A program made the position numbers and the translations under genes. From the NCBI RefSeq assembly GCF_021049285.1, contig NZ_CP088017.1, forward strand, positions 62,001-126,000: 64,000 nucleotides of DNA, in the 5' to 3' direction. This DNA is from Ruania halotolerans. GTDB taxonomy: Bacteria; Actinomycetota; Actinomycetes; Actinomycetales; Beutenbergiaceae. The notes under the pieces are model-generated. The model made no database searches and was not told the origin of the DNA. It saw nothing but the letters and a program-made list of their open reading frames with translations. Position 1 is the stretch's first letter, and each line of letters starts with the position of its first letter. Shown piece after piece: positions 12,736 to 53,578 of this stretch.

Positions 12736-12748
12736 AAGGGAATCACCG

Positions 12749-13735: not shown

Positions 13736-13736
13736 G

Positions 13737-14666: not shown

Positions 14667-14764
14667 AGCCGGTGTTGCCACGAAGCTCGGGCGCCACGGT
14701 CCCCGATTCGTGACCGCGTCAGAGAGACTAGCCAGATGATCAGGTCCAAGATGAGGAGGGGACG

Positions 14765-29343: not shown

Positions 29344-29358
29344 TCACATTTCATGTGA
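29344..29358. promoter_or_regulatory. Second operator candidate for the DeoR regulator
   Basis: TCACAT-TTC-ATGTGA is a perfect inverted repeat 38 bp before the ABC ATPase start. Related half-sites TCACAT (29246-29251) and TGTGA (29268-29272) occur beside the regulator gene, so a shared half-site T(C/A)ACAT is likely. Confidence 0.45.
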
Positions 29359-29396
29359 TGCGCATCGCGGCGCGAACCGAGACGAAGGGGTCCCGC

Positions 29397-31930: not shown

Positions 31931-31979
31931 CCATCCCGAACCCCGTAAGAGACCCACCCACCTGCAAGGAGGCACGAAG

Positions 31980-33008: not shown

Positions 33009-33073
33009 CCTACCGCCGTCGGGTGCCGGCTGCCGGTACCCGACGGCACCATCGCACGATCACGAGGAGAACG

Positions 33074-37573: not shown

Positions 37574-37838
37574 GTGGTGTGTGCAGGCGCCAGCCCGGGC
37601 ATCCTGTCTCGAATCACACGGACGTAGTTTTCCACAGCTTCATGCACAGTCTGGGGATAATCACACAGTTGTGATTCCCCGCGGACTCTCACCACACGCG
37701 GGGTTGCCGGCCGTCTCGGCGTGTGGCCCCACCGGGCGCACACGGTCTTCCGGCGAGGCGTCACGACGTGCGAACCGCATCGGGCACGCGTGCGTGGTCT
37801 GGCCGGCCTGCAGATGCGCGTGATCCACTCCGTCAAGG

Positions 37839-37847
37839 TAAGCGCTA
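37839..37847. promoter_or_regulatory. Possible second LacI half-palindrome
   Basis: TAAGCGCTA shares the AGCGCT core with the palindrome 37 bp further on. Spacing would allow two LacI dimers to bind on both sides of a promoter. The motif is short, so the call is weak. Confidence 0.3.
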
Positions 37848-37882
37848 GAAAATATGCGCACTGAACACTGGACATCACGGAA

Positions 37883-37894
37883 TACAGCGCTGTA
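37883..37894. promoter_or_regulatory. LacI-type operator candidate
   Basis: TACAGCGCTGTA is a perfect 12-bp palindrome with the central CG step typical of LacI-family sites. It lies 50 bp before the first sulfatase gene, and the LacI regulator is at the end of the same cluster. Confidence 0.5.
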
Positions 37895-37943
37895 ACGTCT
37901 CCTCTCGACGAAGACGTCCGCTCGGGAAGGAACGCGCGCAGTC

Positions 37944-39413
37944 ATGGCAGCCAAGACCACCCAGCCCAACATCGTGGTGCTGATGACAGACCAGCAACGG
38001 GTAGGTCTCACCGGTGCCGAGGGCGGCCCCGACTCGATGCCGCGGGTGGATGCGTTGTTCGCCGACGGCGCCCGTTTCGACCGCGCATACACGAGTTGTC
38101 CGGCGTGCGTACCGGCCCGGACCAGCCTGCTCACCGGGCGGTTCCCCTCCGCGCACCGCGTGCGGCAGAACAGCAATGCCGAGCACGCCTTCTACAGCAA
38201 GGACCTGCTGGATGTGCTGCGGGCGGCGGGCTACTCGTTGCACTTCAGCGGCAAGCCGCATATGCACCCTGGACCGCAGGACTTCGACACCTTCCACGGT
38301 CCGTTCATGCACGACCGCGGCCCCACAGAGAGTGCAGCGCACGAGGAGTTCGATGCGTGGCTGCACGGTCTCGACCATGCCGTGACCGAGGAGCCGACGC
38401 CGTTCCCGCTCGAGTCCCAGCTGCCCTACCGGATCGTCGACGGCGCGATCCGGGCCGTGGACGGCGCACCTGCGGAGGATCCGTATTTCCTCTGGCTGTC
38501 ATTCCCGGAACCGCACAACCCGTATCAGGTGCCCGAACCGTACTTCAGCATGTTCGACGAGGCCGAGGTGCCGGAACGGCTGGCGGGCCCGGAAGCCCTA
38601 GACGCCCTGGGCTGGCGGTTCCGTTGGTTGCACCGGTTGATCGAGGAGAAGCGACCCGGGTTCGACCAGGTGTGGAGGCGGTACCGGGCGAACTATCTGG
38701 GCATGCTGCGGATGATCGACGACCAGATCGGGCGCCTGGTGGATCATCTGGCCGATCAGCCCGGCGGGCTGGAGAACACGGTCTTCGTGTTCCTGACCGA
38801 TCACGGTGACTTCGTCGGTGACTACGGGCTGCAGCGCAAGGGCGCCGGACTGCCGGAGGCTCTCACCAGGATCCCGCTCGCTGTGGCCGGCCCTGGGGTC
38901 GAGACCCAGCATCGCAGCGAACTGGTCTCGATGGTGGACCTGCTGCCCACGATTGCCGAGTGGGTGGGCCAGCCGATCCCGCCCGGGGTGCAGGGCCGAT
39001 CCCTGGCGCCGTTGCTGCGTGGAGGCGAGGCTCCGCCGTCGGAGTTCTCCACCATCTACGCCGAGCACGGATACGGCGGCGTCTCCTACGCCGAGACCGA
39101 CCGGCCACCCCTGCACTTCCCCTACCAGGGGTACACCTTCGACGAGCTGAACAGCGTCACCCAGAGCGGGGAGATGCGCATGGTCGTCGGGGGCCGATAC
39201 AAGCTCATCGTCGACGATCGGAGCGAGGTCTTCCTCTACGACCTCGAGTCCGATCCCGCCGAGACCAAGGACCTCAGCGACGACGCCGCCCTGGCAGGCG
39301 TCCGCGAGGACCTCTATCGCCAGCTCGTGCAGTGGTTGCTCCGCGTCGCGGACGACCTGCCCGAGGGCGACTACCAGCCGAAATCCCGTCCCCACAACTG
39401 GCGCTGGGCCTGA
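37944..39413 (+). CDS. Sulfatase (arylsulfatase family, formylglycine type)
   Basis: The 489-aa product has the sulfatase signature Cys55-Val-Pro57-Ala-Arg59 (ACVPARTSLLTGR); Cys55 must be converted to formylglycine by a separate enzyme. Metal ligands appear in VLMTDQQR and FLTDHGDFVGD. The LHFSGKPHMHP and SFPEPHNPYQVPEPYF motifs carry substrate-pocket residues. No signal peptide is seen, so it acts in the cytoplasm on imported sulfated sugars. It is 50-60% similar by eye to the next gene, a tandem duplicate. A LacI-like operator precedes it, and GGAAGGAA lies upstream of ATG 37944. Confidence 0.9.
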   Translation: MAAKTTQPNIVVLMTDQQRVGLTGAEGGPDSMPRVDALFADGARFDRAYTSCPACVPARTSLLTGRFPSAHRVRQNSNAEHAFYSKDLLDVLRAAGYSLHFSGKPHMHPGPQDFDTFHGPFMHDRGPTESAAHEEFDAWLHGLDHAVTEEPTPFPLESQLPYRIVDGAIRAVDGAPAEDPYFLWLSFPEPHNPYQVPEPYFSMFDEAEVPERLAGPEALDALGWRFRWLHRLIEEKRPGFDQVWRRYRANYLGMLRMIDDQIGRLVDHLADQPGGLENTVFVFLTDHGDFVGDYGLQRKGAGLPEALTRIPLAVAGPGVETQHRSELVSMVDLLPTIAEWVGQPIPPGVQGRSLAPLLRGGEAPPSEFSTIYAEHGYGGVSYAETDRPPLHFPYQGYTFDELNSVTQSGEMRMVVGGRYKLIVDDRSEVFLYDLESDPAETKDLSDDAALAGVREDLYRQLVQWLLRVADDLPEGDYQPKSRPHNWRWA

Positions 39414-39442
39414 GCCCAGGCACTGCGATCGAGGAGGTCAGC

Positions 39443-40927
39443 ATGGCGCTACCCGTGGCGGGCCAACGGCCGCACGTTCTGCTGGTGATGACCGACCAGC
39501 AGCGAGCGGGATACACCAGCGGTTCCGGCTTCGCGCTGGACACCATGCCGTTCTGCGACAGCCTGGCCTCGGCCGGATCGCTCTTCCCGAACGCCTACAC
39601 GACCGCACCGGCCTGTGTTCCCGCGCGGGAGAGCCTGCTGACCGGGCGGTGGCCGTCCGCGCACCGCGTGACGCAGAACAGCAATGCCGCCCACGCCTGG
39701 TATAGCAAGGACCTCCTCCAGGTGCTGCGCTCGGCCGGGTACCGGCTGAGCTTCACCGGTAAGCCGCACATGCATCCTGGCCCGAACGACTTCGATCACT
39801 ACGCCGGCCCCTACTTTCACGCCGGCGGCCCGCAGCGTGACCGGGAGCAGCACCATTTCGACGCTTGGCTCGACCACCTGGACTTCGGCGTGGCCGGGGA
39901 ACCGGCGCCGTTCCCCCTCGAGGCCCAGCTCCCGTACCGCATCGTCAGCGACGCCATCGCCGACCTGGACGCGGCAGCTGGGCACGAGGGTCCGCAGTTC
40001 CTGTGGCTCTCCTTCCCGGAACCGCACAACCCGTACCAAGTGCCGGAACCGTACTTCAGCATGTTCGCCGAAGAGGAGATCCCGGAGCGTGCCCACGGCC
40101 CGGAGGCTGCCCAGGCGAAGGGCGGGCACTGGGCCTGGTTGCAGGGACTGTTCGCATCCAAGCGGCCGGGCTATGACGACGAATGGCGCCGCTATCGCGC
40201 GAACTACTGCGGGATGCTGCGGTTACTCGACGATCAGGTACGACGATTCGTCCACCATGCCCGGGCCGCACTCGAGGGCGACATCCTCGTGATCTTCGTC
40301 AGCGACCATGGCGACTACACAGGTGACTTCGGTCTGCAGCGCAAAGGCGCGGGCCTTCCCGAATGCCTGGTCCGGATACCGCTGTTCTTCTCCGGGTCCG
40401 GAGTCAGCCCCGGTCAGGTTCGAGATGAGTTCGTCTCGATTGCCGATCTGATGCCCACCCTGTGCGAACTGGTCGGTGCGCCGCTGCCTGACGGCGTCCA
40501 GGGCCGAAGCCTGCTGCCCCTACTGCGTGGGGCGCCGGGTCCGGAAGCCGAGTTCGGATCGATCTACGCCGAGAGTGGTTTCGGTGGCCTCATGTACGGC
40601 CCCACCGAACGCCCACCCCTGCACTTCTCCTATGACGGCCACACGATCGACTCGCTGAACTCCGTGACGCAGAGCGGTCGGTCACGGATGCTGCGCCGGG
40701 GCGAGCACAAGATCGTCCTGCACAGCAACGACACCGGCGAGCTGTACGACTTGGCCGCCGATCCCGGTGAGGTCACCAATCTGATCGACGACCCCGCCTA
40801 CGCCACGATCCTGCACGAGCTGCTGTGGCGGCTGGCCCAGTGGATGCTCCGTCTCCAGGACGAGCTCCCCCGTGGCACCTACACCCCGAAAACGTCCCCC
40901 CACAACTGGACGACGAGCCCGAGCTGA
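39443..40927 (+). CDS. Second tandem sulfatase (formylglycine type)
   Basis: The 494-aa paralogue of the preceding gene keeps Cys58 in ACVPARESLLTGR, the metal motifs VMTDQQR and FVSDHGDYTGD, and the pocket motifs FTGKPHMHP and SFPEPHNPYQVPEPYF. It also lacks a signal peptide. The copies differ in the N-terminal region, in AEEEIPERAHGPEAAQAKGG versus the first gene, and near the C-terminus, which suggests different sulfate positions or sugars. GAGGAGG lies 7 nt before ATG 39443; upstream in-frame extension overlaps the first sulfatase and is rejected. The two are 29 bp apart and share a transcript. Confidence 0.9.
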   Translation: MALPVAGQRPHVLLVMTDQQRAGYTSGSGFALDTMPFCDSLASAGSLFPNAYTTAPACVPARESLLTGRWPSAHRVTQNSNAAHAWYSKDLLQVLRSAGYRLSFTGKPHMHPGPNDFDHYAGPYFHAGGPQRDREQHHFDAWLDHLDFGVAGEPAPFPLEAQLPYRIVSDAIADLDAAAGHEGPQFLWLSFPEPHNPYQVPEPYFSMFAEEEIPERAHGPEAAQAKGGHWAWLQGLFASKRPGYDDEWRRYRANYCGMLRLLDDQVRRFVHHARAALEGDILVIFVSDHGDYTGDFGLQRKGAGLPECLVRIPLFFSGSGVSPGQVRDEFVSIADLMPTLCELVGAPLPDGVQGRSLLPLLRGAPGPEAEFGSIYAESGFGGLMYGPTERPPLHFSYDGHTIDSLNSVTQSGRSRMLRRGEHKIVLHSNDTGELYDLAADPGEVTNLIDDPAYATILHELLWRLAQWMLRLQDELPRGTYTPKTSPHNWTTSPS

Positions 40928-40960
40928 CGCTCGTACTCACCGAGACGAAGGAGTCTGCAT

Positions 40961-42463
40961 ATGAACACCTCAGGAACAACAGCACGTGGTATTCCCGGAC
41001 CGCGGTCCCTCGATCGCCGCCAGTTCCTCGGAGCCTCTGGCGCCAGTGCTCTCGCAGTGGCGCTGGCCAGCTGCACCGGTGGCGGTCAGAGCTCGCAGGA
41101 AGAGACGAGCGGCGGCGGTGACGGGCGGATCCAGTGGTGGGACCAGTTCCGCCCGCTGACGCAGATGCTCGAAACTGAGCTGTTCGAGCCCTATATGGCC
41201 GCCAATGAGGGCGTCACCATCGAGCGGCGCGAGCTCGCGGCCGCTGACCTGGGGCAGGCCCTGCAAGTGGCGCGACGCAGCAACCAGTTGCCTGATGTGC
41301 ACTCCCTGGCGGGCCTGGATTCGGCGCCGGCGGCACTCGTGAGTGAAGGCTGGTTCCAGCCGATCAGTGAGTTTGCCGATTTCGACGCCAGCCCGGTGGC
41401 CGATCAGATCTTCGACGGTCTGCACCGGTTCGAGGGGAACGTCTACTCCGTGCCGCTCTTCTCTGCACGCCAGCACGCCACCATCCCCTGGTACAACGCC
41501 GAGCTGCTCGAGCAAGCGGGGGTGGACCCGGCAGATGAGCCCGTCACCTGGGACGACCTGCGGACGATCGCACGGCAGGTCAAGGACAACACGGACGCGC
41601 ATGGCATCTTCCTTCCGGCTCAGAACCCGAACTACCTCAGCGCGATCGTGATCCAGCTGGCGATGGCCGCCGGGGCGCCGGGTGAGATCGACTGGCGCAC
41701 GGGTGAGTACGTGCAGGACTCCGCCCCGTTCGTGGAGGCTGTCGAATTCCTGCTTTCGCTGCAGCAGGACGAACTCGTCCACCCGTCCTCACCGGCGATG
41801 ATCCCGCGTGATGCGATGGCACGATGGGCGGCCGGCGAAGGGGCGATCTACCCCTGGGGTCCGTGGTTCATCGGCGATCTCGCCTCCGAATCCCCCGATG
41901 TGGTCGAGCGCGGTCTCGGGTGCTGGTCGATCCCGCGCCCGGACTCCGAGCTGCGCTCGGTCCGGTCCGGTCCGGCCGGCGGCGTGTTCTGGGTCTCGAC
42001 GGACTCCGCACAGCCCGAGGTGGCCGCGGATCTGCTGCTGCAGATGACCCAGGAGGAGTTCCAGTCCGCGCTCGCCACAGCGATGGATCAGCCGCCGGCG
42101 TTGCTGGAGGTGGTCGAGACCGCCGATGTACACCCCGCGTACCGCGACATGGTGGCCCGTTTCGCCGAAGATGTCCGCATCGCGCCTTCTCCCGAGATCG
42201 GTCACCCCGAGGCCTGGCGAGTCCTGGCAGAGATGCGTCCGGTCGAGCCCGGCATCGGCACGATGATGCAGTCGGCACTCAGCGGGGACGACATCGACGT
42301 CGCCGCCGAGCTGCGCACCTACCGGGAGGCGATGAGCGCCGAACGTGAGCGAGCCCTGGAGGCCGTGCAGGGCGAGGGCGCTGAGGTCGATCTGGACGCG
42401 TGGGTGTTCGGGAATTGGGATCCGGAGTCGGATTATGCAATCGCCGATTACGACGCTCGATAA
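40961..42463 (+). CDS. ABC transporter extracellular binding lipoprotein (carbohydrate family 1)
   Basis: The 500-aa product has a twin-arginine signal (LDRRQFLGASG) followed by a lipobox (LASC), so it is exported folded through Tat and then lipidated. The mature part has the fold of sugar-binding proteins of the oligosaccharide group: QWWDQF at the start, DVHSLAGL, GNVYSVPLFSAR, and DPADEPVTWDDLRTIARQ. It should capture an oligosaccharide and deliver it to the two permeases that follow. No ATPase is in the cluster, so a shared MsiK-like ATPase elsewhere is needed. It starts 33 bp after the sulfatase. Confidence 0.9.
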   Translation: MNTSGTTARGIPGPRSLDRRQFLGASGASALAVALASCTGGGQSSQEETSGGGDGRIQWWDQFRPLTQMLETELFEPYMAANEGVTIERRELAAADLGQALQVARRSNQLPDVHSLAGLDSAPAALVSEGWFQPISEFADFDASPVADQIFDGLHRFEGNVYSVPLFSARQHATIPWYNAELLEQAGVDPADEPVTWDDLRTIARQVKDNTDAHGIFLPAQNPNYLSAIVIQLAMAAGAPGEIDWRTGEYVQDSAPFVEAVEFLLSLQQDELVHPSSPAMIPRDAMARWAAGEGAIYPWGPWFIGDLASESPDVVERGLGCWSIPRPDSELRSVRSGPAGGVFWVSTDSAQPEVAADLLLQMTQEEFQSALATAMDQPPALLEVVETADVHPAYRDMVARFAEDVRIAPSPEIGHPEAWRVLAEMRPVEPGIGTMMQSALSGDDIDVAAELRTYREAMSAERERALEAVQGEGAEVDLDAWVFGNWDPESDYAIADYDAR

Positions 42464-42508
42464 GCCTGTTCGGGGTAGTGATCGGGCAATGATCGGGCGA
42501 GGAGCGCA

Positions 42509-43474
42509 ATGACGGCGTTGGATGAGAGCCGGGAGTTGTCGACGATGTCGGCGCGGCCTTCGAAACTGGGGTTGTGGCGGCGGTTGCGTCGGGATTGGTG
42601 GATTTATCTGTTCTTGTTGCCCACGATTGTGGGGTATGGGGCGTATACGGTGTATCCGTTGGTGGCCTCGTGGTGGTTCGCGTTTCTGGATTGGCCGGGG
42701 TTTGCTGATTCGGGCACGTTCATCGGTGTGGAGAATTTCCAGCGGTTGGTTGGCGATGATCTGTTCTGGAATGCGTTCACGAACTCGTTGATCTTCTTGG
42801 TACTCGCGGTGCCGTTGCGGGTGGGGTTGGCGTTACTGCTGGCGATCTTGCTGAACCGTAAACGCACCCCGTTCAAGGGCCTGTTGCGCACGTTGTTCTT
42901 CCTGCCGGTGGTCACTACCGGGGCGATCATCGGGGTGGTGTTCACGCTGTTGCTTGATGCCGGTGGCCCGATCAGTGTGGCGTTGGTAGGGGCGGGGTTG
43001 CTGGACTCGCCGGCGAACTTCGTCGCTAGTACTGATACCTCGTTGCTGGCGGGGGTGGCGGTGTGGGTGTGGAAATGGCTCGGGATCACGATGATCTACT
43101 GGCTGGCGGCGTTGCAGACCATCCCCGATGAGGTCCACGAGGCCGCGATGATCGATGGCGCCAAGCCGTGGCAGGAGTTCACCCGGATCACGATGCCGCT
43201 GCTGATCCCGTTCCTGGTGATCATCACCCTGATCGACACCGTGGGTGCGTTGAACGTCTTCGATCTGATGTACACGATGACCGGTGGTGGGCCCTCGTTC
43301 TCTTCTGAGGTGATCGAGATCTTCATCTTCCGTACCGCTTTCGGGGCCACCGTGCCCCAACTCGGATACGCCTCAGCCGCCGCCGTGCTCTTCGGGATCC
43401 TCACGATGGGCATCGCGCTGGCCCAAGCGGTCGGTCTGCGCTGGGCCCGCCGAGCCACAGGAGCAATGAAATGA
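42509..43474 (+). CDS. Carbohydrate ABC transporter permease, MalF/UgpA type
   Basis: The 321-aa product has six hydrophobic helices and the EAA loop EAAMIDGAKPWQEFTRITMPLL for contact with the ATPase. LFLLPTIVGYGAYTVYPLV is the first helix. It pairs with the next permease. The first 500 bp use TTG and G/T-ending codons far more than the rest of the operon, while the last third returns to the C-ending codons of the surroundings. ATG 42509 has GGAG upstream. It overlaps the next gene by 4 bp. Confidence 0.92.
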   Translation: MTALDESRELSTMSARPSKLGLWRRLRRDWWIYLFLLPTIVGYGAYTVYPLVASWWFAFLDWPGFADSGTFIGVENFQRLVGDDLFWNAFTNSLIFLVLAVPLRVGLALLLAILLNRKRTPFKGLLRTLFFLPVVTTGAIIGVVFTLLLDAGGPISVALVGAGLLDSPANFVASTDTSLLAGVAVWVWKWLGITMIYWLAALQTIPDEVHEAAMIDGAKPWQEFTRITMPLLIPFLVIITLIDTVGALNVFDLMYTMTGGGPSFSSEVIEIFIFRTAFGATVPQLGYASAAAVLFGILTMGIALAQAVGLRWARRATGAMK

Positions 43475-44415
43475 CCACCCCACCCACCACCACCACCGCT
43501 CCTGCTGCTGCTGCACAGAACGCGGGCAGGAATCAGCGGGTCCGGGGTCGGGCGTTGCGCCCGGACCGCCCCGATGGGCTACGCACGCTGATCCGCCGGC
43601 CGGGGAGTTTGATGATCTTCGCCGGGTTGTTGATCCTGGCGTTGATTTGGATCTACCCCTTCATCTGGTTGGTCTCAGCATCGTTGAAGACCCAACCTGA
43701 GATCTTCGGCTCCGGCCTGGGCCTGATCCCGGAGACCCCGGTGTGGGAGAACTACACCCGCGCCTGGACCGTGGTCGGGTTCGACCGGTACTTCCTCAAC
43801 TCCGTCATCATCACCGGCGGAACAGTCGCGCTGATCGTGATCCGCTCCGCCCTAGCCGGATACGTCCTGGGCCGGTATGACTTCATCGGCAAGAAACTCC
43901 TCATCGGGATCTTCCTGATCACATTCTTCCTGCCCGAGGGCTACACCATCATCCCCGTGGTCCAACTCACCGACCAGATCGGGCTACTGAACACCCACCT
44001 CGGGGTCATCCTGGGCCTGGGCGCCGGCGGTCAAGTCGCCGCCACCCTGCTGTATGCCGGCTATTTCCGTGGACTACCCAAAGAACTCGAAGAATGCGCC
44101 CGCCTCGACGGCGCCGGGCACCTGCGCATCTTCGCCCAGATCATGCTCCCCCTGGCCTGGCCGATCACCGCGACCGTGATCATCCTGAACTTCCTCTTCG
44201 CCTGGAACGTCTACCTCCTGCCACTGGTCTTCACCCTCTCCGAACCCGCCCTACGCACCCTCGCCGTCGGCATGAGCGCCTTCATCGGCGAATACTCCAC
44301 CGACTGGTCCGGCCTGGCCGCCGCCGCCACGATCTCCCTCATCCCCGTCATGGCCATCTTCATCACCCTCCAACGCAAATTCGTCGACAGCATCGCCGGA
44401 GCAGTCAAACAATGA
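43471..44415 (+). CDS. Carbohydrate ABC transporter permease, MalG/UgpE type
   Basis: The 314-aa product has a Thr/Pro/Ala-rich N-terminal cytoplasmic tail and six hydrophobic helices. The EAA motif is ELEECARLDGAGHLRIFAQIMLPL. With the preceding permease it forms the channel of an oligosaccharide importer. The ATGA start overlap implies translational coupling. An ATP-binding subunit is not encoded here. About 90 bp separate it from the GH2 gene. Confidence 0.92.
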   Translation: MTTPPTTTTAPAAAAQNAGRNQRVRGRALRPDRPDGLRTLIRRPGSLMIFAGLLILALIWIYPFIWLVSASLKTQPEIFGSGLGLIPETPVWENYTRAWTVVGFDRYFLNSVIITGGTVALIVIRSALAGYVLGRYDFIGKKLLIGIFLITFFLPEGYTIIPVVQLTDQIGLLNTHLGVILGLGAGGQVAATLLYAGYFRGLPKELEECARLDGAGHLRIFAQIMLPLAWPITATVIILNFLFAWNVYLLPLVFTLSEPALRTLAVGMSAFIGEYSTDWSGLAAAATISLIPVMAIFITLQRKFVDSIAGAVKQ

Positions 44416-44504
44416 CCGGCGCTCGGCGAGAACGTCGCCTCAGAATCCACTCATTGCCATCCGCCCACCATCAGATCGGCTACCGATCTGCACCTGGAGG
44501 AGAC

Positions 44505-47500
44505 ATGCCCACTACGTCAGGCAGGCACCGATTGCGGGCCGGAGCGACGATGCTCACCGCCTGCGCACTGCTGGTGCCGATGTCGATCGCCACCGCCGCC
44601 CCGCACGGCGATCCCGCTGAGGAGGAACAGATGCCCATCACGACGACGGTCAGTGGACAGGTCGTGGATGCCGACAGTGGCGAACCGATCGAGGCGGCGA
44701 CTGTGCACGCCTCGCGCACGGACGCCGTCACCCGCTCCGGTGCCGACGGCACCTTCGTGCTCGAGGAGGTGCCTGCGGACGCGGCACTGGTGGTCGCCGC
44801 GAGAGAGGGATACGCGTTCGCCTCCACCGCCGTCGGCTCCTCCGCCGTCGATTCCACCGCCGTCGATTCCACTGTGCGGCTCGAGCTCGAACGGGACAGC
44901 GACCCGGCCCGCGGCGAGTACCCGCGTCCGGACGCCGATCGCCGCCCGTTCACCGACGACGCGTGGCTCTCCCTGAACGGCACGTGGTCCTTCGCCTTCG
45001 ACCCCGACGACGTTGGTGAGTCCGAAGAATGGTACGAACCTGATCACGAGATGGATCGAGCCATCCGGGTGCCATTCGCGTACCAGTCGCTCGCCGCCTG
45101 GGGCGAGGAGGAACTGGCCACCAGCGAGACCTTCCTCAGCGCGTACGCCGATTATCAGGGCACCGTCTGGTATCAGCGCTCCTTCACCGTGCCGGAGGAC
45201 TTCCCGAACGACGGTGCAGTCCGGCTGCGCATCGGCGCCGCGGACTACGGCGCCGCGGTCTGGTTGGACGGCGAGGAGGTCTTGCCCTACTCCGGTGACG
45301 GCTTCACCGAGATCAGTGCCGATCTGGGCAGGCTGCGCCCGGGCTCGACCCACACCCTGGCGATCCGGGTCGAGGCGCCGTCCGTCGACCGCGAGACGCC
45401 CTACCCGCAGGGGAAGCAGACCGGTGACCCGCCGATCGAGGGAGCGAGTGAAGGGTGGTTCAGTGACGTCGGCGGGATCTGGCAGTCGGTGTGGATCGAG
45501 CCCTATCGCGGGGGTCGCCTGACCCAGACGCACGTGACGCCCGAGCTGACGTTCGAGGGAGACTCGCGAACGCCGTCGGAGGCCTTCGTGACGATTGACG
45601 TGACCGCGGAGGGCGTCCGCGGACGGCCACCGGTGACCGTGACGATCACCGACCCGGACGGGCACGTCGTGCACTCGCGGATCCGGGTGCATCTTGAGGA
45701 CGGGCGTGGCAGCGTGCGCGTACCGATCGAGGACCCGCATTTGTGGGACACCGACGACCCCGCCCTCTACACCGCCGACTTCCGGCTGCTCAGCCAGGAC
45801 GGGCTCCGGACCTCCTTCGGGATGCGCAGCATTGAGCGCAATTGGGCACCCGGGCAGGAGGGTGAGTACCAGTACATCTACCTCAACAATCGCCCGATCT
45901 ACATCCGGGGCGTCCTGGATCAGGGGTACAACCCGTGGGGCCTGTACACCTACACCGGTGAGACGGCCGGTCCCGACCTGCAGACCGGCACCGAGGCCGA
46001 ACCGGGCCGGGGATCCATGGCGATGGACCTGCAGAACGCCCGAGACCTCGGGTTCAACGTGGTCCGGCACCACCTCAAGGTCAACGAGCCCGCCTACTAC
46101 CACCGCGCCGACCAGTTGGGGATGCTGATCTGGTACGACATGCCGAACTCCGGGTGGGGCTCTCAAGGGGACCCGCAGGCCGAGGAACTGTTCGAAGAGC
46201 TGCTACGGAACACCCTCAACCGGGACCACAACCACCCCTCGATCGTGATCTGGAGCGTCTTCAACGAATCCTGGGGGCTGAACGAGCGCCCGTTCCAGGA
46301 ACCGATCGCCACCGACGCCTTCGACTATGTGCGCGGGATGGTCGACGTGACCCGTGACCTCGATTCCTCCCGCCTCGTGGTCGACAACTCACCGTGCTGT
46401 CAGAACGGCCACCTGGAAGGGTCGACCGATCTGAACGACTTCCACTTCTATCTCGATACCTACGATGCGTGGAAGAACCTGCTCGACGGGATCGAGCCAC
46501 AGATCGAGCCGGGCTCGAGCTGGAACTTCAACGACGGCGTCCAGGACGGGCAGCCGTGGCTGAACTCCGAATTCGCGGTCAAGAGCGGGCAGTTCCAGCA
46601 CAGCGTGAGCCTGTTCCGCAGCTATCCGGAGATGACCGGATACGTCGGTGTGCAGATCGCTGAGACCGAGCAGGAGGTGCAGAGCCCGTTCCGGTACGAT
46701 CGCCAGCCCAACTCCCCGGAGTTCCTCGACCACGAGGGCAGGGCTCGCACGATCGAGATGTTCCAGCGCGACGACGCGATCTCCCTGATGACGCGGACCT
46801 CACACACCCTCGAACGCGGTGAGACCATCGACGTCCCGGTCCGGATCAGCCACTTCAGCGATCTCGACCTGTCCGATGCGCAGCTGCACTGGCGGATCGG
46901 CGGCTACCGGGACGACGGCACTTGGGTGGGTGAGGCCGATAGCGGTTCGCAGACGATCGACCCCAGGCGCTATACCGTGACCGACGCCGGCACGGTTTCG
47001 CTGACCACACCGGAGGAGCTGCGCGTCGGGTACCTCTGGTTCTGGATCGAGGCCGACGGCGAGACTGCCGCGGAACAGTACCTCACCTTCGACACGCCGG
47101 TGCCGGCGGGCGGGGCGGGATTCTCACCGTCCGACGTGGTCAGCCACGAGTGGACTGGTGGCGTGGCCGCGCACGGCGAGTCGGACTGGGTGAGCGGCTA
47201 TGGCCGTGGCCACTTCGACTACGAGGTGGCGGTGCCCGAGGAGGTCCGTACCGGACAGGCCGGCGAGGTGACCCTGGTGATGGAGGTGGCCTCGGCGCAG
47301 ACCGCCGGACGGTTCGACCGCAACCACGTGACCAGCGCTCGCCGGTATCCGACGGATCTCACGGTCTCGATTGACGGGCACGAACTGCCCGCCGTCCTGC
47401 TGCCCGACGACCCGAACGGCCCGCTCGCCCTGGCGGGCCGATCACGTGGCACACCGGCCGGCGACTTCGGCAACCGGTACGGCTACCGGATTGCGGTCCC

Positions 47501-48596
47501 GATCACTGCTGACCAACTCGGTGAGGATGAGACCGCCACGATCCGGCTCGCCAGTGACGGAGGTGGGCTCTCGATCTTCGGCGCGCGGTCCGGCCGGCAC
47601 GGCCAGCCGCCGATGCTGATCAGCGGCGACGTCACGGTCGCCGACGAGCGGCCCGCCTATGAGCCGGTGGACACGCGACTGTCGGTGTACCAGGCCGGTG
47701 CGCAGATCTCACCCGAGACCGGGTCCGGGACCGCGATCGTCTCGGTCGTCAACGACACCGCCGAGACGATCGAGGAAGTCAGCGTGGCCCTGGCCGCACC
47801 GCAGGGCTGGACCGCCAGCGCCGAGGACCCGGCCGCCATCGCATCACTCGCACCCGGTGCGGCGCGGCATATCGCGTTTACCGTGCAGAGCGGCGGGGGC
47901 GTCATGCCCGGTGAGTCCGCGGACTTCACCGCGACCGCCAGCTGGGCTGATCACGCGATTCAGAACGTGAGTCCCTCGACCGTTGCCTTCGATCCGGCTG
48001 CCTACTCCGAGGTGGGGGTGAGCGACAGCTTCGACACCGACACCAGCGCCGAGTACACGTTGCACCAGCCCCTCGCGAACAGAGTGCTGCCGACGCTGAC
48101 CGTCGGGGCCGGCACGATGCAGGCACAGGCCGGCAGCCCCTACTTCGGCCTGGCCGCGCACGAGTCCGGGCCGCAGAGTCCGCAGGCGGTGGTGGTGGTC
48201 GAGCACGGCAGTTTCGGCGCCAATGGCATCACCCCGGACTCGCAGTTCAACGGGATCGTGAAGGACGAGGACAACTACGTGATGGCGTGGACCGGTATCG
48301 GCGGGCAACACGGCGTTGACGTGGTGATCGACGGTGAGCTGACCAACGCGTGCTGTACACCGGGCAGGCTCCAGCCCGGAGACCTGTGGGCGTTCGCCCT
48401 CGACGGCAACTCGATCGCCGTCTGGGTCGACCAGGGGCTCGGCTGGAACCGGATTCTGACGACCACCACCCAGGGCCGGATCGATTTCACCGAGCCGGGA
48501 GCGCTGGACGGGTGGCACTACGCCGCAGGACTGCGCAGCGGCGGGGTTCAGACGATCCACCATCTGGAGGGCCGCAGCCGAGTCGACGAGCACTAG
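44505..48596 (+). CDS. Secreted multidomain glycoside hydrolase family 2 enzyme
   Basis: The 1363-aa product has a signal peptide ending near TAAP (residue 33), a carboxypeptidase-regulatory-like beta domain (about 47-125; VSGQVVDADSGEPIEAATV), a GH2 sugar-binding domain (about 150-320), an Ig-like domain, and a TIM barrel. The general acid/base is Glu588 in FNESWG and the nucleophile is Glu689 in LNSEFAV. The region beyond 800 has more beta domains, including one resembling NEW3 (about 1050-1160), and a C-terminal lectin-like domain. It is expected to remove a terminal beta-linked galactosyl, glucuronosyl or similar unit from a polysaccharide outside the cell. GGAGGAG precedes ATG 44505. No LPXTG anchor is seen. 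Confidence 0.88.
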   Translation: MPTTSGRHRLRAGATMLTACALLVPMSIATAAPHGDPAEEEQMPITTTVSGQVVDADSGEPIEAATVHASRTDAVTRSGADGTFVLEEVPADAALVVAAREGYAFASTAVGSSAVDSTAVDSTVRLELERDSDPARGEYPRPDADRRPFTDDAWLSLNGTWSFAFDPDDVGESEEWYEPDHEMDRAIRVPFAYQSLAAWGEEELATSETFLSAYADYQGTVWYQRSFTVPEDFPNDGAVRLRIGAADYGAAVWLDGEEVLPYSGDGFTEISADLGRLRPGSTHTLAIRVEAPSVDRETPYPQGKQTGDPPIEGASEGWFSDVGGIWQSVWIEPYRGGRLTQTHVTPELTFEGDSRTPSEAFVTIDVTAEGVRGRPPVTVTITDPDGHVVHSRIRVHLEDGRGSVRVPIEDPHLWDTDDPALYTADFRLLSQDGLRTSFGMRSIERNWAPGQEGEYQYIYLNNRPIYIRGVLDQGYNPWGLYTYTGETAGPDLQTGTEAEPGRGSMAMDLQNARDLGFNVVRHHLKVNEPAYYHRADQLGMLIWYDMPNSGWGSQGDPQAEELFEELLRNTLNRDHNHPSIVIWSVFNESWGLNERPFQEPIATDAFDYVRGMVDVTRDLDSSRLVVDNSPCCQNGHLEGSTDLNDFHFYLDTYDAWKNLLDGIEPQIEPGSSWNFNDGVQDGQPWLNSEFAVKSGQFQHSVSLFRSYPEMTGYVGVQIAETEQEVQSPFRYDRQPNSPEFLDHEGRARTIEMFQRDDAISLMTRTSHTLERGETIDVPVRISHFSDLDLSDAQLHWRIGGYRDDGTWVGEADSGSQTIDPRRYTVTDAGTVSLTTPEELRVGYLWFWIEADGETAAEQYLTFDTPVPAGGAGFSPSDVVSHEWTGGVAAHGESDWVSGYGRGHFDYEVAVPEEVRTGQAGEVTLVMEVASAQTAGRFDRNHVTSARRYPTDLTVSIDGHELPAVLLPDDPNGPLALAGRSRGTPAGDFGNRYGYRIAVPITADQLGEDETATIRLASDGGGLSIFGARSGRHGQPPMLISGDVTVADERPAYEPVDTRLSVYQAGAQISPETGSGTAIVSVVNDTAETIEEVSVALAAPQGWTASAEDPAAIASLAPGAARHIAFTVQSGGGVMPGESADFTATASWADHAIQNVSPSTVAFDPAAYSEVGVSDSFDTDTSAEYTLHQPLANRVLPTLTVGAGTMQAQAGSPYFGLAAHESGPQSPQAVVVVEHGSFGANGITPDSQFNGIVKDEDNYVMAWTGIGGQHGVDVVIDGELTNACCTPGRLQPGDLWAFALDGNSIAVWVDQGLGWNRILTTTTQGRIDFTEPGALDGWHYAAGLRSGGVQTIHHLEGRSRVDEH

Positions 48597-48601
48597 GTCG
48601 T

Positions 48602-48633
48602 TGCGGCCGAGGCGCCCACGCGCCCCGGCCGCA
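48602..48633 (+). terminator. Hairpin after the GH2 gene
   Basis: TGCGGCCG pairs with CGGCCGCA and, after one mismatch, GGCGC pairs with GCGCC around loop CCAC. It begins 6 bp after the GH2 stop and should end the sulfatase-ABC-GH2 transcript before the LacI gene. Confidence 0.6.
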
Positions 48634-48712
48634 CCGGGCACAGGAGGGGGCATGTGCACACCATCGACTGACAACCGCCGCGCCGCCGCGATCACGACCG
48701 TGACCCGGTAGC

Positions 48713-49783
48713 GTGACAGGCGTGGCTCAGGACCAGAAGACCGGGCGCCCGCGCCTCACCGACGTCGCCGAGATCGCCGGCGTGTCGATGAAGACGGTCT
48801 CGAATGTGATCAACGGGTACCAGCACGTGGCGCCACGCACCCGCGAACGCGTGCTGGCGGCCGTGGACGAGGTGGGCTACCGCCCGAACCTCTCCGCCCG
48901 CAACCTCGCGCGCGGCCGCTCCGGGGTGATCGCGCTCGTGGTCCCTCGACTGGAGATGCCGTACTTCTCCGCGCTCGCGGGCCGGGTGATCGAACGCGCG
49001 CAGGCCCGGGGCTGGTTCGTGCTGATCCACGAGACCGGGTGGGACCGTGCCGCCGAGCGTGCTGCGCTTGAGGGTCACTTCCCGCAACGCATCGACGGGC
49101 TCATCGTCAGTACGCAACGCCTCTCCGCCGAGGACTTGCGCATGCGGACCGACCGAACCCCGCTGGTACTGCTCGGCGAGCACGGCTACGGCGATCTCGC
49201 CCACCACGTGGCGATCGACAACGTCGCGGCCTCACGGACCGCAGTGGAGCACCTTCTGGACCGCGGATGCCGGCGGATAGCGATGATCGGTGCCGATCCC
49301 GACGACGGTGACGATCCCCGGATGCGCGGGTACACCGAAGCGCTCGGCCATGCCGGTCTGCGGCTGGACCGGAATCTGATGCGCCGGATCGAGAGCAACT
49401 CCGGTGAGGAGGGCGAGCGCGCCACCCGGGACCTGCTCGCCCAGGTGGGTGAACCTCCGGACGGGTTGTTCGCCGTCACCGACTGGGTGGCGCTCGGCGC
49501 CATCCGGGCCCTGCACCTGGCAGGGCTGCACGTGCCCGATGACGTGGCCGTGGTGGGCTTCGACGACATCCCCTACGCCCGGGCGGTCACGCCCTCGCTG
49601 ACCACCATCTCCCCGGATCGCACCGCGATTGCCGAACTGGCGCTGCAGATGCTGGAGGCGCAGTTGAGCGGTGGTGAACTGGCGGAGCCCGTGGATCAGC
49701 ACGTGCCGTTCCACCTGGTGGTGCGCGAGAGCACCACCGGAATCGGCGCGGCGCCGGCCGAGGATCAGGAACCGGTGGCCTGA
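48713..49783 (+). CDS. LacI-family transcriptional regulator
   Basis: The 356-aa product has the N-terminal helix-turn-helix RLTDVAEIAGVSMKTVSNVIN and hinge helix SARNLARGRSG, followed by a PBP1-type effector domain with VIALVVPRLEMPYFSAL and TDWVALGAIRALHLAG, VGFDDIPYA. It probably binds the TACAGCGCTGTA palindrome at 37883 and releases it when a sugar from the glycan binds. GTG 48713 is used; GTG 48722 is also possible. Its 3' end overlaps the convergent PPOX-like gene by 19 bp. Confidence 0.9.
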   Translation: MTGVAQDQKTGRPRLTDVAEIAGVSMKTVSNVINGYQHVAPRTRERVLAAVDEVGYRPNLSARNLARGRSGVIALVVPRLEMPYFSALAGRVIERAQARGWFVLIHETGWDRAAERAALEGHFPQRIDGLIVSTQRLSAEDLRMRTDRTPLVLLGEHGYGDLAHHVAIDNVAASRTAVEHLLDRGCRRIAMIGADPDDGDDPRMRGYTEALGHAGLRLDRNLMRRIESNSGEEGERATRDLLAQVGEPPDGLFAVTDWVALGAIRALHLAGLHVPDDVAVVGFDDIPYARAVTPSLTTISPDRTAIAELALQMLEAQLSGGELAEPVDQHVPFHLVVRESTTGIGAAPAEDQEPVA

Positions 49784-50181
49784 GCCGCCCCCCAGCCGTG
49801 CCAGCGGTCCAGCTCCACCAGTACGCTCACCCGCGGCCGGTCACGTACCGGGTAGGGGTTGCCGCCGTAGTGGATGGACAGCCGGTCGATATCGGCCAGA
49901 TCGGCATCGTCGCGGATCTCGACCACATGCCCCTGCACGCTCACGTGCGTGTACCAGTTGTCCTCGGCAAGTGCGGTGAGGGAGACCTGCGGGTTCTCCC
50001 GCAGGTGCCGCAGCCGTGCGCGGCCACCATCCAGGTTCAGGAGCAGCTGCCCATCATCGGTGATCAGGTACCAGGTGGCCACCGAGACCGGGTACCCGTC
50101 CGGGTGGATCGTGGCCATCACCGCCGGGTTGGGCCGGCGCAACAGCTCGAGCGTCCTCTCCGGAAGCGGGGCGCGGGGCAT
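49765..50181 (-). CDS. PPOX-class flavin/F420-dependent oxidoreductase
   Basis: The 138-aa product is a split beta-barrel of the pyridoxamine-5'-phosphate-oxidase-like group. LRRPNPAVMATIHPDGYPVSV and LLLNLDGGRARLRHLRENPQVSLTA, cited in parts, give the cofactor-contacting strands. Members in actinobacteria often use F420, but FMN is possible. It follows the crgA gene on the minus strand by 3 bp, an arrangement not seen in Mycobacterium. Its 3' end overlaps the LacI gene tail. Confidence 0.8.
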   Translation of the reverse strand: MPRAPLPERTLELLRRPNPAVMATIHPDGYPVSVATWYLITDDGQLLLNLDGGRARLRHLRENPQVSLTALAEDNWYTHVSVQGHVVEIRDDADLADIDRLSIHYGGNPYPVRDRPRVSVLVELDRWHGWGAAQATGS

Positions 50182-50184: not shown

Positions 50185-50430
50185 TCAGCGCCACCGCATC
50201 GTCATCACGAACCCGATCATCATGAGTCCGAAGCCCACGGCGAGGTTCCAGGAGCCGATATCGGGGATCGGTCCGGCGGACTGCACGATGTAGGTGACCA
50301 CCACCCACACCAGGCCCAGGATCATCAGCGTGACCATCGTGGGCGCCCACCAGCGCGGGTTCGGCTTCGGCGCGGAGGACGCGGGCGGTGGGGTGTAGGC
50401 CGGCTTCTTGCGGGACTTCGACTCAGGCAT
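50185..50430 (-). CDS. crgA: Cell division protein CrgA
   Basis: The 81-aa protein has a charged N-terminus (MPESKSRKKPAY), a Pro-rich stretch and two membrane helices (MVTLMILGLVWVVVTYIV and WNLAVGFGLMMIGFVMTMRW), ending in the typical TMRWR. CrgA recruits or regulates septal peptidoglycan enzymes in actinobacteria by contacting FtsZ, PBPs and other divisome parts. In Mycobacterium tuberculosis it is Rv0011c, between ppiA and the trpG-pknB block. Here the order is kept but the gap to each side is filled by carbohydrate genes. GAGGAGAACG precedes its ATG. Confidence 0.93.
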   Translation of the reverse strand: MPESKSRKKPAYTPPPASSAPKPNPRWWAPTMVTLMILGLVWVVVTYIVQSAGPIPDIGSWNLAVGFGLMMIGFVMTMRWR

Positions 50431-50466: not shown

Positions 50467-52902
50467 CTACGGGCAGTGCAGCCGCACCGGGCCGAGAAGC
50501 CCCGATCGCATGGGTGCACCCTCGTAGTAGACCGCCGCGGCATTGCTGACCAAGACCTGGAGACGGTTCGTCCCAGCACGCAGCAGACCGGCCCGGATGC
50601 GGATCCGGTAGGGCGCCCAGCCAAGCACGCCGGCCTCCGTGCCGTTCACGATCACCGTGGCCGTCTCCCCGACCTCGCCGAGGTCCAGCACCACCTCGCC
50701 GGGGTCGGCATCGAGCTCCAGGTCGGTGCGGTACTCGACGGTGCCCGAGAAGCGGCGTAGCCCTGGAACGGTGAGCCAATCCACGCCGTCGGGGATCGGC
50801 TCCGCCCCGGGCAGGGCGAGCCCGTCGAGAGCGCGCGACGGCGTCCCTCGCCACCCCGCCACCGGCACGATTCGGCTCCCCGTGGGCAGTCCCAGCCAGC
50901 CCCCGACGGCGTCCCCGCCCTGGTCCGGCCCCTCACCGGCCGGACTCAGCACGGCGCTCTGACGGCGCTCCAGCACCAGCTCGACGGCCATCGCGGTACC
51001 CGCGGACTCCGCGTGCGCCGGCCGGTGCACCTCCTCGAACGGGAACCACCACTGCCAGGGCGAGCCTGCGCCGTCGGGAACCTCCAGGTGCACCGTGGTG
51101 CGGATCGCCTCCTCGCCCTCGTTCACCAGTAGCCAACGCGTGCCCACCCGGGCCACGCGCAGGCCCGGGGCGGCCGGCTGCACCCGCAGCGGCCAGGCGC
51201 CGGTGGCGTGCAGGTGTTCGAGCACGTCCTCAAGCCAGCCCGGCCCCAGCGGAACCCGGGCAAGGTTGTGGTCGCTTCCGCCTGGAATCTCGGCCAGATC
51301 TTTGCCCACACGGGCGTCCACCACGACGGCGTAGCGCTGGTCGCCGAGGTGCAGGCGCCCGTCTCTGATCTCGCCCGAGGCGAGCTGGTCGGTGCTCACG
51401 TAATGGAAGTCAACCTGCCGTTCCAGCAGCGCGGCTGCTGGAACATCCGGCGCATGCGCCTCCTCGCTGAGCACGGCCACCGGCGCCCGGGGCGGGGTCT
51501 CGGTCAGCAGGTCCGCCATCCGGGCGAGGTAGCGCACCAGCGCCGGGAACTGTGGCCACCACGGGTGATGCTTGCCCAGATCCGGTTCGCTCTCGAAGGC
51601 TCGATTGCCACGCACCGAGTCGAAGAAGGCGTGCAGGACCAGTGTGGCGACCCCGCGGCTGAGATACCAGTCCAGCAGCCACTTGGCCTCATCCATGGTG
51701 AGCTGCCAACCGTAGGCGCCGAGCACCTCCGCCACGGCCGTGGGCGCCGCGCGGTTCCGGGCGGCGCTCGCAGCCACTTTCGCCGCAGTGCTCTCCGGCC
51801 CGGTCAACGCGGTCTCGCCGGGGAGTACCCAGCGCCACACGGTGTCCTGCCCCGGCCAGTCCAGCAGTGCCGTGGTGCCGAGGTCGTCCCCGGCGGCAGC
51901 ATGACCGGTGAGTGCGATGCCGTGCTCGGCACACCACGCGGCCTGGGCGCCGTAGTACACCCGGTGCAGCCGGGCGCGCACCGTCTCCTCCCACAGCGAC
52001 CGGATGGGTTGATCGTCGCCGCCATCCCAGAGTCCGGGGAGCATCGCCAGCACCTCGTCCACGTCGATCCCGGCGCGTTCGGCCGCCTCGTGCTCCAGGC
52101 CTGAGGTGTACGGCGCGGCGCCGGGGCGCGGACCACGGCCGAGCAGGTCCGGCTCGTCGGTGAACATCGCCACCACAGTCTCGCCGAGATGGCCCTCGAG
52201 CGCGCGGGCGTACGCGCCATGGGTGAGCGTGAGGAAGGTGGCCACGGCGTCCGGGTTCAGCAGGTCCGCGGCCGGAGGGGCCAGCGCGGAGCCGTCGTCC
52301 TGATCGCCATGTGCGCCGCGGATGGTGCCGCCGCTCGGCCCGGCCGCGATCGCATGCAGCCGCCACGTGCCGGGCGGTAGGTCGGTGAGCGGAACGAGTC
52401 CGGGTGTCTCGACGTCCAGCAGGCGAGCTCCGGCGAGATCGGGACCTGCGTCCAGCAGCGGTGTGGCCACGGCGGCGAGAATCGCGGCATCCGGGGACCG
52501 GCCCAGCGGCGGATGCCAGAAGTCCTGGTCCGTGGCCCGCCCGGGCACCTGCGCGGTGACGGTCACATCCGTGCTCAGCCGGTACAGGCAGTGCGCGGCG
52601 AACTGCGGATCGCTCGCCACGACGGCACCGTTGGCCGACCCCGACGGGTAGGAGGCCTCGTCGTAGAGCATCACGTGCAGGCCGGCCGCGGCGCACTCGT
52701 CCACGCACACGCGCACCAGGCGCAGGTACTCCTCGCTCAGGTAGCCGATCTCACGGCTGAGACCGAGGCGGGCACTCGGGGTGATCCCGCGGAACCCGGC
52801 AGCGGCGAACTCACGCACCTGGGTGCGGATGCCGTCGTCGGTGAGGTCGTCGTTCCAGAAGATGAACGCGTAGGGGCCGTACGCGTTCCGGATGCCCGCC
52901 AC
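50467..52902 (-). CDS. GH106-like glycoside hydrolase (alpha-L-rhamnosidase type)
   Basis: The 811-aa product opens with a barrel region typical of GH106 and its relatives: FIFWNDDLTDDGIRTQVREF, YLSEEYLRLVRVCVDEC, LYDEASYPSGSANG, and MFTDEPDLLGRG, cited as separate motifs. The middle section has MDEAKWLLDWYLSRG. The C-terminal part is a GH2-like galactose-binding domain (EYRTDLELDADPGEVVLDLG...VNGTEAGVLGWAPY). No signal peptide is seen, so it acts on imported oligosaccharides. GTG 52902 lies 4 bp after the O-methyltransferase stop; no clear ribosome binding site, so translation coupling is likely. Shorter than the usual 1000-1100 aa. The substrate may be rhamnose-containing, as in ulvan, but this is inference. 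Confidence 0.72.
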   Translation of the reverse strand: MAGIRNAYGPYAFIFWNDDLTDDGIRTQVREFAAAGFRGITPSARLGLSREIGYLSEEYLRLVRVCVDECAAAGLHVMLYDEASYPSGSANGAVVASDPQFAAHCLYRLSTDVTVTAQVPGRATDQDFWHPPLGRSPDAAILAAVATPLLDAGPDLAGARLLDVETPGLVPLTDLPPGTWRLHAIAAGPSGGTIRGAHGDQDDGSALAPPAADLLNPDAVATFLTLTHGAYARALEGHLGETVVAMFTDEPDLLGRGPRPGAAPYTSGLEHEAAERAGIDVDEVLAMLPGLWDGGDDQPIRSLWEETVRARLHRVYYGAQAAWCAEHGIALTGHAAAGDDLGTTALLDWPGQDTVWRWVLPGETALTGPESTAAKVAASAARNRAAPTAVAEVLGAYGWQLTMDEAKWLLDWYLSRGVATLVLHAFFDSVRGNRAFESEPDLGKHHPWWPQFPALVRYLARMADLLTETPPRAPVAVLSEEAHAPDVPAAALLERQVDFHYVSTDQLASGEIRDGRLHLGDQRYAVVVDARVGKDLAEIPGGSDHNLARVPLGPGWLEDVLEHLHATGAWPLRVQPAAPGLRVARVGTRWLLVNEGEEAIRTTVHLEVPDGAGSPWQWWFPFEEVHRPAHAESAGTAMAVELVLERRQSAVLSPAGEGPDQGGDAVGGWLGLPTGSRIVPVAGWRGTPSRALDGLALPGAEPIPDGVDWLTVPGLRRFSGTVEYRTDLELDADPGEVVLDLGEVGETATVIVNGTEAGVLGWAPYRIRIRAGLLRAGTNRLQVLVSNAAAVYYEGAPMRSGLLGPVRLHCP

Positions 52903-52906
52903 GTAA

Positions 52907-53578
52907 TCAGCTGACGCGGCGGAAGAGGGCGAACCCGTCCCAGCCCTTCGATCCGACCGTCTGCAGGGCGGTGCCGTCCAGTCGTGGGTCGGCGGCGGCG
53001 AGCGCGAGCGCATCGCGCACGCCGCGCACGTCGTCGTCAGTGGAGTCCTGATCGGCCACGCGACCTGCGCGCACCACGTTGTCGAGCACGATCACACTGC
53101 CCGGGCGGGTGAGTTCGAGGGCTGCCTGCAGATACCGGGCGTTATTGGGCTTGTCGGCATCGATGAACACCAGGTCGAAAGGAGCCTGCCCGGTCTCGAT
53201 GATCCGGTCTGCGCTCTCCCCGGCCGGGCCGAGCATGATCTCGACCACGTCACCCACCCCGGCCGCATCAGCGTTGCGGCGGGCGATGCCGGCGTTCTGC
53301 TCGGACACCTCCAGGGTGACGACGCGGCCCTGTGGACCGACAGCGCGGGCCAGCCAGATGGTGCTGTACCCGGCCAGCGTGCCGAACTCGAGCACCCGGT
53401 GCGCTCCGATCATCTCGGTGAGCAGGGCGAGGAGCTTGCCCTGGTTGGGGGCGACGGCCGCCCCGGGCATCGTGGTGTCCTGGGCGGATTCCCGTGCCGC
53501 CACCAGCGCCTCATCTTCGGGCACCAGGGTCTCGACCAGATAGTCATCAACCTCGACCTGTACATCTGCGTGGCTCAT
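52907..53578 (-). CDS. O-methyltransferase (Methyltransf_3 type, SAM-dependent)
   Basis: The 223-aa product has the class I methyltransferase fold of the catechol-O-methyltransferase group: VLEFGTLAGYSTIWLA (SAM site), VVTLEVSEQNAGIARRNAD, FDLVFIDADKPNN (metal Asp), and VIVLDNVVRAGRV. Such enzymes methylate phenolic, catechol or acid groups with a divalent metal. It is the first gene of a minus-strand run with the GH106-like gene and then crgA; the GH106-like gene starts 4 bp after its stop. Role in the glycan locus is not clear. ATG 53578 faces the DUF881 gene. Confidence 0.87.
   Translation of the reverse strand: MSHADVQVEVDDYLVETLVPEDEALVAARESAQDTTMPGAAVAPNQGKLLALLTEMIGAHRVLEFGTLAGYSTIWLARAVGPQGRVVTLEVSEQNAGIARRNADAAGVGDVVEIMLGPAGESADRIIETGQAPFDLVFIDADKPNNARYLQAALELTRPGSVIVLDNVVRAGRVADQDSTDDDVRGVRDALALAAADPRLDGTALQTVGSKGWDGFALFRRVS

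Follow-up and report, generated by a model that had tools for sequence, protein, structure and literature searches.

A probable LacI-controlled sulfatase locus with constant ends and a lineage-variable importer in Ruania halotolerans

Main finding

The window analysed here, a 64-kb stretch of DNA comprising bases 62001-126000 of the 4.27-Mb single-contig genome of Ruania halotolerans (G000), carries beside crgA a locus that is probably a set of repressor-controlled genes for importing sulfate-bearing sugars and removing their sulfate. Judging from the sequences compared, a sulfatase gene (S1) and a lacI gene are its constant bookends, and the middle between them is one of two unrelated importers. 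The reading that we favour, and consider likely, is that of a LacI-controlled locus for sulfate-ester sugars made of two constant bookends and a lineage-variable middle. As a catabolic locus it would be ordinary in kind and unusual in build, its function and substrate being predicted from sequence.

Gene content of the locus

Genes were called from a listing of open reading frames and their translations, and were named by Pfam and NCBIfam, except ppiA, rhomboid, DUF881, sortase and trpG, which were named by eye. The order in the window is ppiA, rhomboid, S1, S2, SBP, permease 1, permease 2, GH2, LacI, PPOX (−), crgA (−), GH106-like (−), O-methyltransferase (−), DUF881, sortase and trpG. The type I sulfatase S1 (37944..39413, + strand; PF00884, E 5e-42), also supported by alignment of its orthologues, is followed on the same strand by a second sulfatase, S2 (39443..40927; PF00884), with 59% identity to S1, and by a solute-binding lipoprotein, SBP (40961..42463; PF13416), in which a twin-Arg motif and a lipobox were recognised by eye. 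Two permeases, which we take to be of the CUT1 type (permease 1, 42509..43474; permease 2, 43471..44415; both + strand, PF00528), precede a large GH2 enzyme of 1363 aa (44505..48596, + strand; PF02836/PF02837) with a signal peptide seen by eye, and the LacI repressor (48713..49783, + strand; PF00356, PF13377) closes the series.

The preliminary description had claimed a cluster of two sulfatases, an importer, a GH2 enzyme and a LacI regulator between rhomboid and crgA. All of these genes were found, in the order and on the strand claimed, each with a Pfam family above cut-off, and the catabolic genes do lie in that interval; a PPOX/F420-type oxidoreductase gene between LacI and crgA had been overlooked (49765..50181, − strand; TIGR03618 above cut-off). 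This gene overlaps the LacI stop and, in the crgA regions compared, adjoins crgA solely in insert-bearing genomes. Also overlooked was a GH106-like/jelly-roll glycosidase gene (50467..53013, − strand) beyond crgA (50185..50430, − strand; PF06781, E 2e-32). It reaches NF045579 at 50.3 bits (cut-off 50) and stays under the cut-off of 29 for PF17132 (18.4 bits; 27.5 for an Occultella homologue), and its start is uncertain, since relatives match it only from residue 38-43 onward. Since the open reading frames of the locus are intact and conserved in relatives, chance is not an issue.

Insertion into the ppiA-crgA block

We compared the crgA regions of the window and 12 further genomes (Ruania G001-G007, which makes eight Ruania in total, and G009, G010, G013, G014 and G017 from other genera); for G021 and G023 the comparison covered the sulfatase region. 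The rhomboid-crgA interval holds the locus in five of the eight Ruania (G000, G001, G003, G004, G006) and is without it in 5/5 genomes of other genera, where the gene spacing is 0.5-1.9 kb. The series ppiA, rhomboid, crgA, DUF881, sortase and trpG is uninterrupted by the locus in G002, G005, G009, G010, G013, G014 and G017, and in G007 only rhomboid and crgA of this block are visible, the locus being absent between them. The interval contains a glyoxalase-family gene in G002 and G007 (named by Pfam in G002, a look-alike in G007), both with the locus elsewhere, and is a 454-base gap in G005, where an S1 match at E<=1e-40 is absent. Such matches occur in 15/39 genomes searched and in 4/25 genera.

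The proposal that catabolic genes had been inserted into a conserved block is thus borne out, as the block runs on without the locus in the crgA regions of relatives; the opposite outcome named beforehand, the same genes in this interval in all relatives, is not what the Ruania genomes display. What does not hold is the picture of a single cluster inserted as a unit, because sister genomes have different middles and there is further variation on the rhomboid side and beyond crgA. The GH106-like gene lies beside crgA in G000, G001 and G004 and elsewhere in G017 and G020, and G004 has an additional GH31-type gene between rhomboid and S1. With this variation on both flanks, the block is a repeated landing site in Ruania: an arrangement left unbroken in the other genera compared has received catabolic genes in one genus.

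Two unrelated importers between constant genes

Type A loci consist of S1, S2, SBP, PERM1, PERM2, GH2 and LacI and occupy the rhomboid-crgA interval in G000, G001 and G006; type A is found elsewhere in the genome without S2 in G002 and G007, and with S2 in Occultella gossypii (G023), whose LacI is in L147. Type B loci consist of S1, SBPb, PERM1b, PERM2b and LacI, GH2 and S2 being absent, and lie at the rhomboid-crgA interval in G003 and G004 and elsewhere in G013. A form with SBPb and without permeases is present in G010, G014, G017 and G021. PERM1 and a B permease share about 28-30% identity. A side observation is that S1-SBPb-LacI arrangements without permeases between SBPb and LacI recur in L020, L024, L026, L027, L040, L047, L050, L052 and L065, where the permeases of SBPb must therefore be elsewhere.

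The type does not follow relatedness. S1 is 94% identical between G000 (A) and G004 (B) and differs at 18/264 fourfold sites between G003 (B) and G006 (A), yet each pair is of opposite types, and the S1 and LacI trees pair these nearest genomes across types (G000/G004; G006/G003). On trees of 20 S1 and 18 LacI proteins, with the permease-less form pooled with type B and 7 and 6 unlabelled rows uncounted, the type label changes 4 times on each tree, the minimum forced by strongly supported branches being 4 for S1 and 3 for LacI. Shuffled labels do as well in 191/500 cases or more, which means that the types show no grouping by lineage. Among the matches listed, G000 and G006 offer nothing close to a B permease (64% and 65% identity at best; 92% in G004), and no GH2 match at E<=1e-60 was found in G003 or G004. 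The middle may have been exchanged between the bookends by recombination, or by deletion and insertion.

One has to consider that no exchange took place. An ancestor could have carried the two importers one after the other between the bookends, each lineage later losing one of them, and we regard this as possible though rather doubtful. The tree of the type A middle, (G000,(G001,G006)),(G002,G007),G023, is in step with the bookends, so that topology lends no support to the A module having passed from one Ruania lineage to another. The type B modules of G003 and G004 show a fourfold divergence of 0.46-0.59, core-like or higher, which makes old coexistence followed by differential loss possible, and in Pseudonocardia (L048 and L049) a B locus has an A-like importer as its neighbour. 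However, no Ruania or Occultella locus examined has both importers between the bookends, and both would have had to persist across several splits, the last of them as shallow as the G003-G006 difference in S1 given above. A lineage-variable middle, probably exchanged between constant bookends, stays the preferred reading.

Between G000 and G006 the fourfold divergence of the middle is 0.31 (469/1501), against 0.46 (992/2147) for a core set that includes argS; values are also low in argS (0.27) and in the upstream sugar genes (0.22-0.34), and codon bias may account for the low figure of the middle. For G000-G004 the core without pstP gives 0.39 (877/2275), and middle figures for pairs with G003 or G004 were discarded since S2 and S1 paralogues had been compared. 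We do not claim that the A middle moved recently from one Ruania lineage to another: the low fourfold divergence hints at this, the trees do not.

Two further details concern the middle. In Kribbella steppae (L046 11485-11814) a 109-aa frame lies between S1 and LacI, downstream of an A-like importer; its last 92 residues are those of PERM2b (78%) and its start is SBPb-like (17 residues, E 0.25), so that it looks like a deletion scar of a type B importer. An enolase-superfamily gene stands before LacI in G001, G002, G006, G007 and G023 (70-100% to the G006 copy) and matches acid-sugar dehydratase models well under cut-off; 116 bases separate GH2 from LacI in G000.

Operators and promoter upstream of S1

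Two palindromic sites precede S1. The operator O1 (37835..37852, core AGCGCT at 37841-37846) is 45 bp upstream of O2 (TACAGCGCTGTA, 37883..37894), which fills the spacer between a −35 element TGGACA (37869..37874, + strand) and a −10 element TAACGT (37893..37898, + strand). The 45-bp spacing of two AGCGCT-centred sites, and the filling by O2 of an 18-nt spacer between TGGACA or TGGACT and TAxxxT, recur in 10/10 Ruania and Occultella loci examined. The exact TACAGCGCTGTA 12-mer is single copy in the 4.27-Mb genome, with one mismatch at 4 more places, and within the window the S1 promoter is its only match within 2 mismatches.

A matrix built from the Ruania and Occultella sites, leaving out G013, G014 and G021 with their related but looser palindromes, was run on 77 wider loci. 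Seventeen scored at least 14.0 and 60 at most 11.0, the cut between them being set after the scores were seen. Control stretches, 20 random ones of 240 bases per locus from the same loci, which may themselves contain true operators, gave a 99th percentile of 10.1 and a 99.9th of 24.4, exceeded by 18/77 and 13/77 loci. The operator is found in all 16 wider loci with a LacI orthologue (at least 49% identity, downstream within 6.5 kb) as against 1/61 without; that single locus, L039 of Occultella gossypii, has a 74% LacI just past the end of its stretch, and is an exception because the stretch ends before LacI. Two of the 17 operator loci, L039 and L041, belong to genomes whose sites contributed to the matrix, and the count without them is 15/75. 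The LacI protein has the HTH and periplasmic-binding domains of its family, and the operator is a palindrome with a central CG. That LacI acts on O1 and O2 is predicted from co-occurrence only.

The regulatory scenario that we propose is the following. When substrate is lacking, LacI would bind O1 and O2, and its presence at O2, between the −35 and −10 elements, would block the promoter; when the inducer is present, probably a sugar of the pathway, the operon would be expressed. The known regulons of LacI-family sugar repressors share with this scheme a local repressor, an even palindrome with a central CG and sites close upstream of the start, and about 20% of their operons have more than one site (PMC4052901). 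The difference lies in that here the repressor and the sulfatase persist while the importer differs; in the main text of PMC4052901 the string "sulfat" has 0 occurrences.

If the importer does vary around a constant repressor and sulfatase, whatever induces the locus should be common to all versions, and the substrate of an unassigned sulfatase clade could then be tested by comparing A and B strains. Taken further, S1, LacI and the two-operator promoter would be a stable frame, a fixed switch with a swappable importer, into which importers with or without enzymes have been plugged repeatedly, with one inducer and an undescribed sulfated furanose glycan of Actinobacteria; we offer this extension tentatively and would not expect all of it to hold. 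The E. coli yih sulfoquinovose cassettes (PMC12608037) resemble the Ruania locus in that a sulfur-sugar cassette occurs in two structural forms at the same genomic position, and these forms are dispersed across the tree. As described there, however, one of the yih forms is a truncation and the sulfur group is a sulfonate, whereas in Ruania two unrelated importers appear to alternate between constant flanking genes and the group would be a sulfate ester.

Sulfatases, importer and proposed route of the substrate

S1 and S2 match PF00884 at 144.6 and 149.4 bits (cut-off 25). Both contain CVPAR, with C55, P57 and R59 invariant in 29 sequences; we take C-x-P-x-R to be the formylglycine site of type I sulfatases. 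The genome encodes an FGE (260 bits), and the sulfated nutrient put forward earlier gains support from this enzyme together with two sulfatases bearing C-x-P-x-R. No signal peptide was seen by eye in S1 or S2. With 18 PF00884 matches, sulfatases are common in this genome.

Alternatively, the sulfatases might hydrolyse a small sulfate ester that is not a sugar, choline sulfate for example, or might be enzymes for phosphonate or phosphate esters; the GH2 would then be incidental. S1 and S2 match the choline-sulfatase model TIGR03417 (170.7 and 157.6 bits) and S1 matches PehA NF045661 (150.9 bits), the better PDB matches include choline sulfatases and phosphonate monoester hydrolases, and type B loci have no glycosidase between the bookends. 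Yet these scores are far under the curated cut-offs of 433 and 900 bits, and the best S1 model, arylsulfatase NF010322, likewise stays under its threshold (206 of 481). Moreover, the importers look CUT1-like for sugars, the LacI next to them is of a sugar type, and clusters labelled GH2 are present in 21/83 and 9/83 loci. A non-sugar ester thus seems improbable to us, and we retain a sulfate-ester sugar.

The binding protein and two permeases of the importer were identified by Pfam. The locus itself encodes no ABC ATPase; genome-wide there are two MalK-type (OB_MalK) matches, versus at least 22 for one CUT1 permease (E<=1e-40). A SusC/SusD pair as in Bacteroidota-type PULs was not among the Pfam matches of the ten proteins scanned. 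In the version found in the window, the secreted GH2 would trim an extracellular, probably furanose-containing glycan, and SBP with the two permeases would import the sulfated product, energised by a shared MalK/MsiK-type ATPase. Cytoplasmic S1 and S2, matured by the FGE of the genome, would then remove the sulfate, and sugar and sulfate would enter metabolism. Those Ruania that have the unrelated type B importer carry it flanked by the same S1, LacI and operators, with neither GH2 nor S2.

GH2 enzyme and candidate substrates

The preliminary description had named an algal or glycosaminoglycan-like glycan, and the GH2 enzyme points elsewhere. Its PDB ranking is led by 7xyr (1e-40) and by 9j6n and 9j6m (1e-39), then 7sf2 (2e-30) and the next chain at 5e-23; the alignment is good only at about residues 126-642 of 1363, and there are extra N- and C-terminal domains. 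No NxK occurs in the stretch EQEVQSPFRYDRQPN, which we take to be loop 8 from GUS alignments, in 6/6 GH2 sequences. Glu588 and Glu689 are invariant in 6 sequences. Pointing away from a furanosidase, the best NCBIfam GH2 model is a beta-glucuronidase, matched far under its cut-off (98.8 of 544 bits). An NxK motif in loop 8 is the rule for most GH2 beta-hexuronidases, with GH2_11 and GH2_21 as exceptions; 9J6M is placed in GH2_18 and 7XYR, uncharacterised and deposited as a beta-glucuronidase, in GH2_19, both within the furanosidase group (PMC12243196). Given the lack of NxK and the nearness to furanosidase chains, the earlier suggestion is left without support.

The window's GH2 thus appears closest to the group III furanosidases (GH2_18/19), in the sense of nearness in the PDB list and not of a subfamily assignment. 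It differs from 7xyr in having an NE motif where 7xyr has TV. It also has Val, not Thr, at what we infer to be the Trp-to-Thr column of the −1 subsite described for GH2_18/19 (PMC12243196), this Val aligning with the Thr of CYTQF in 7xyr in a weak 1.4-bit stretch. Two small GH2 enzymes tested from near S1 homologues, of Microlunatus and Jiangella, match 7xyr at 4e-114 and 9e-84, the first chain beyond 7xyr, 7sf2 and 9j6n/m coming only at 2.7e-24 and 2e-22.

GH51-like and GH43-like clusters are found near S1 homologues in 8/83 loci each, one member of each having been named by profile. Five of the 8 GH51-cluster loci are in the 42 genomes searched for PF06964, for an estimated background of less than 1 per 42 stretches; the estimate was made by hand, relatedness makes the genomes non-independent and some loci enter twice, and we read the figures as a hint of GH51 enrichment. 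Altogether, GH2 and the neighbouring enzymes would point to furanose glycans rather than glycosaminoglycans, and a sulfated furanose glycan is our leading guess for the substrate. No lyase or hydrolase for glycosaminoglycan, ulvan or carrageenan was found among the ten locus-region proteins scanned by Pfam. In G014 an A importer and a GH2 lie in a 19.9-kb stretch without a sulfatase among the called genes and with another LacI, so that this module need not serve sulfated sugars.

The GH106-like enzyme nearby could suggest an algal sulfated rhamnan, ulvan-like, as the substrate. Its gene adjoins crgA in G000, G001 and G004, and in Occultella (G017) the homologue is next to rhamnose-isomerase-, FGGY-kinase- and aldolase/SDR-type genes. 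We nevertheless think an ulvan-like substrate quite unlikely, since G006 and G002, which have full type A loci, give no GH106-like match at E<=1e-40, the gene lies past crgA on the opposite strand, and in the window TACAGCGCTGTA within 2 mismatches is confined to the S1 promoter. Literature searches found nothing on sulfatase-linked sulfated arabinan degradation or on this locus, from which we claim no wider absence.

Flanking features

Directly after rhomboid, two 9-mers within 1 mismatch of TTATCCACA form DnaA-box-like repeats (37628..37660), supported by blastn similarity, that make up a conserved non-coding edge beside the locus and outside the operon. The rhomboid-side interval has 2-5 such boxes, within 1 mismatch, in 13/13 genomes of the family, for single-base shuffle means of at most 0.10. 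On that side of crgA in 13 genomes from other families of the order, five have at least two boxes within 300 bases, five have only one and three have none in 2.6 kb. The repeats might serve as a DnaA-binding element away from oriC.

The 64-kb window yielded no tRNA, and no IS or integrase gene was noticed among those named in the insert. Phd/VapC-like toxin-antitoxin pairs, named by eye, adjoin the locus in Occultella G010 (L020 6366-6988) and in Ca. R. gallistercoris (L017 2-618). The crgA match of G004 is split into two parts that lie in different frames (L013 about 11445-11687), by a frame break or a sequencing error. A lower-GC stretch of the window (8590-15451) carries genes that, judged by eye, resemble those of mandelate racemase and TRAP transporters. 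A further catabolic insert (window 29355-34993) precedes ppiA; it consists of a ribose/arabinose-type ABC importer and a bifunctional aldolase/SDR and is found in the regions compared of G003, G004 and G006 and not in those of G001, G002 and G005.
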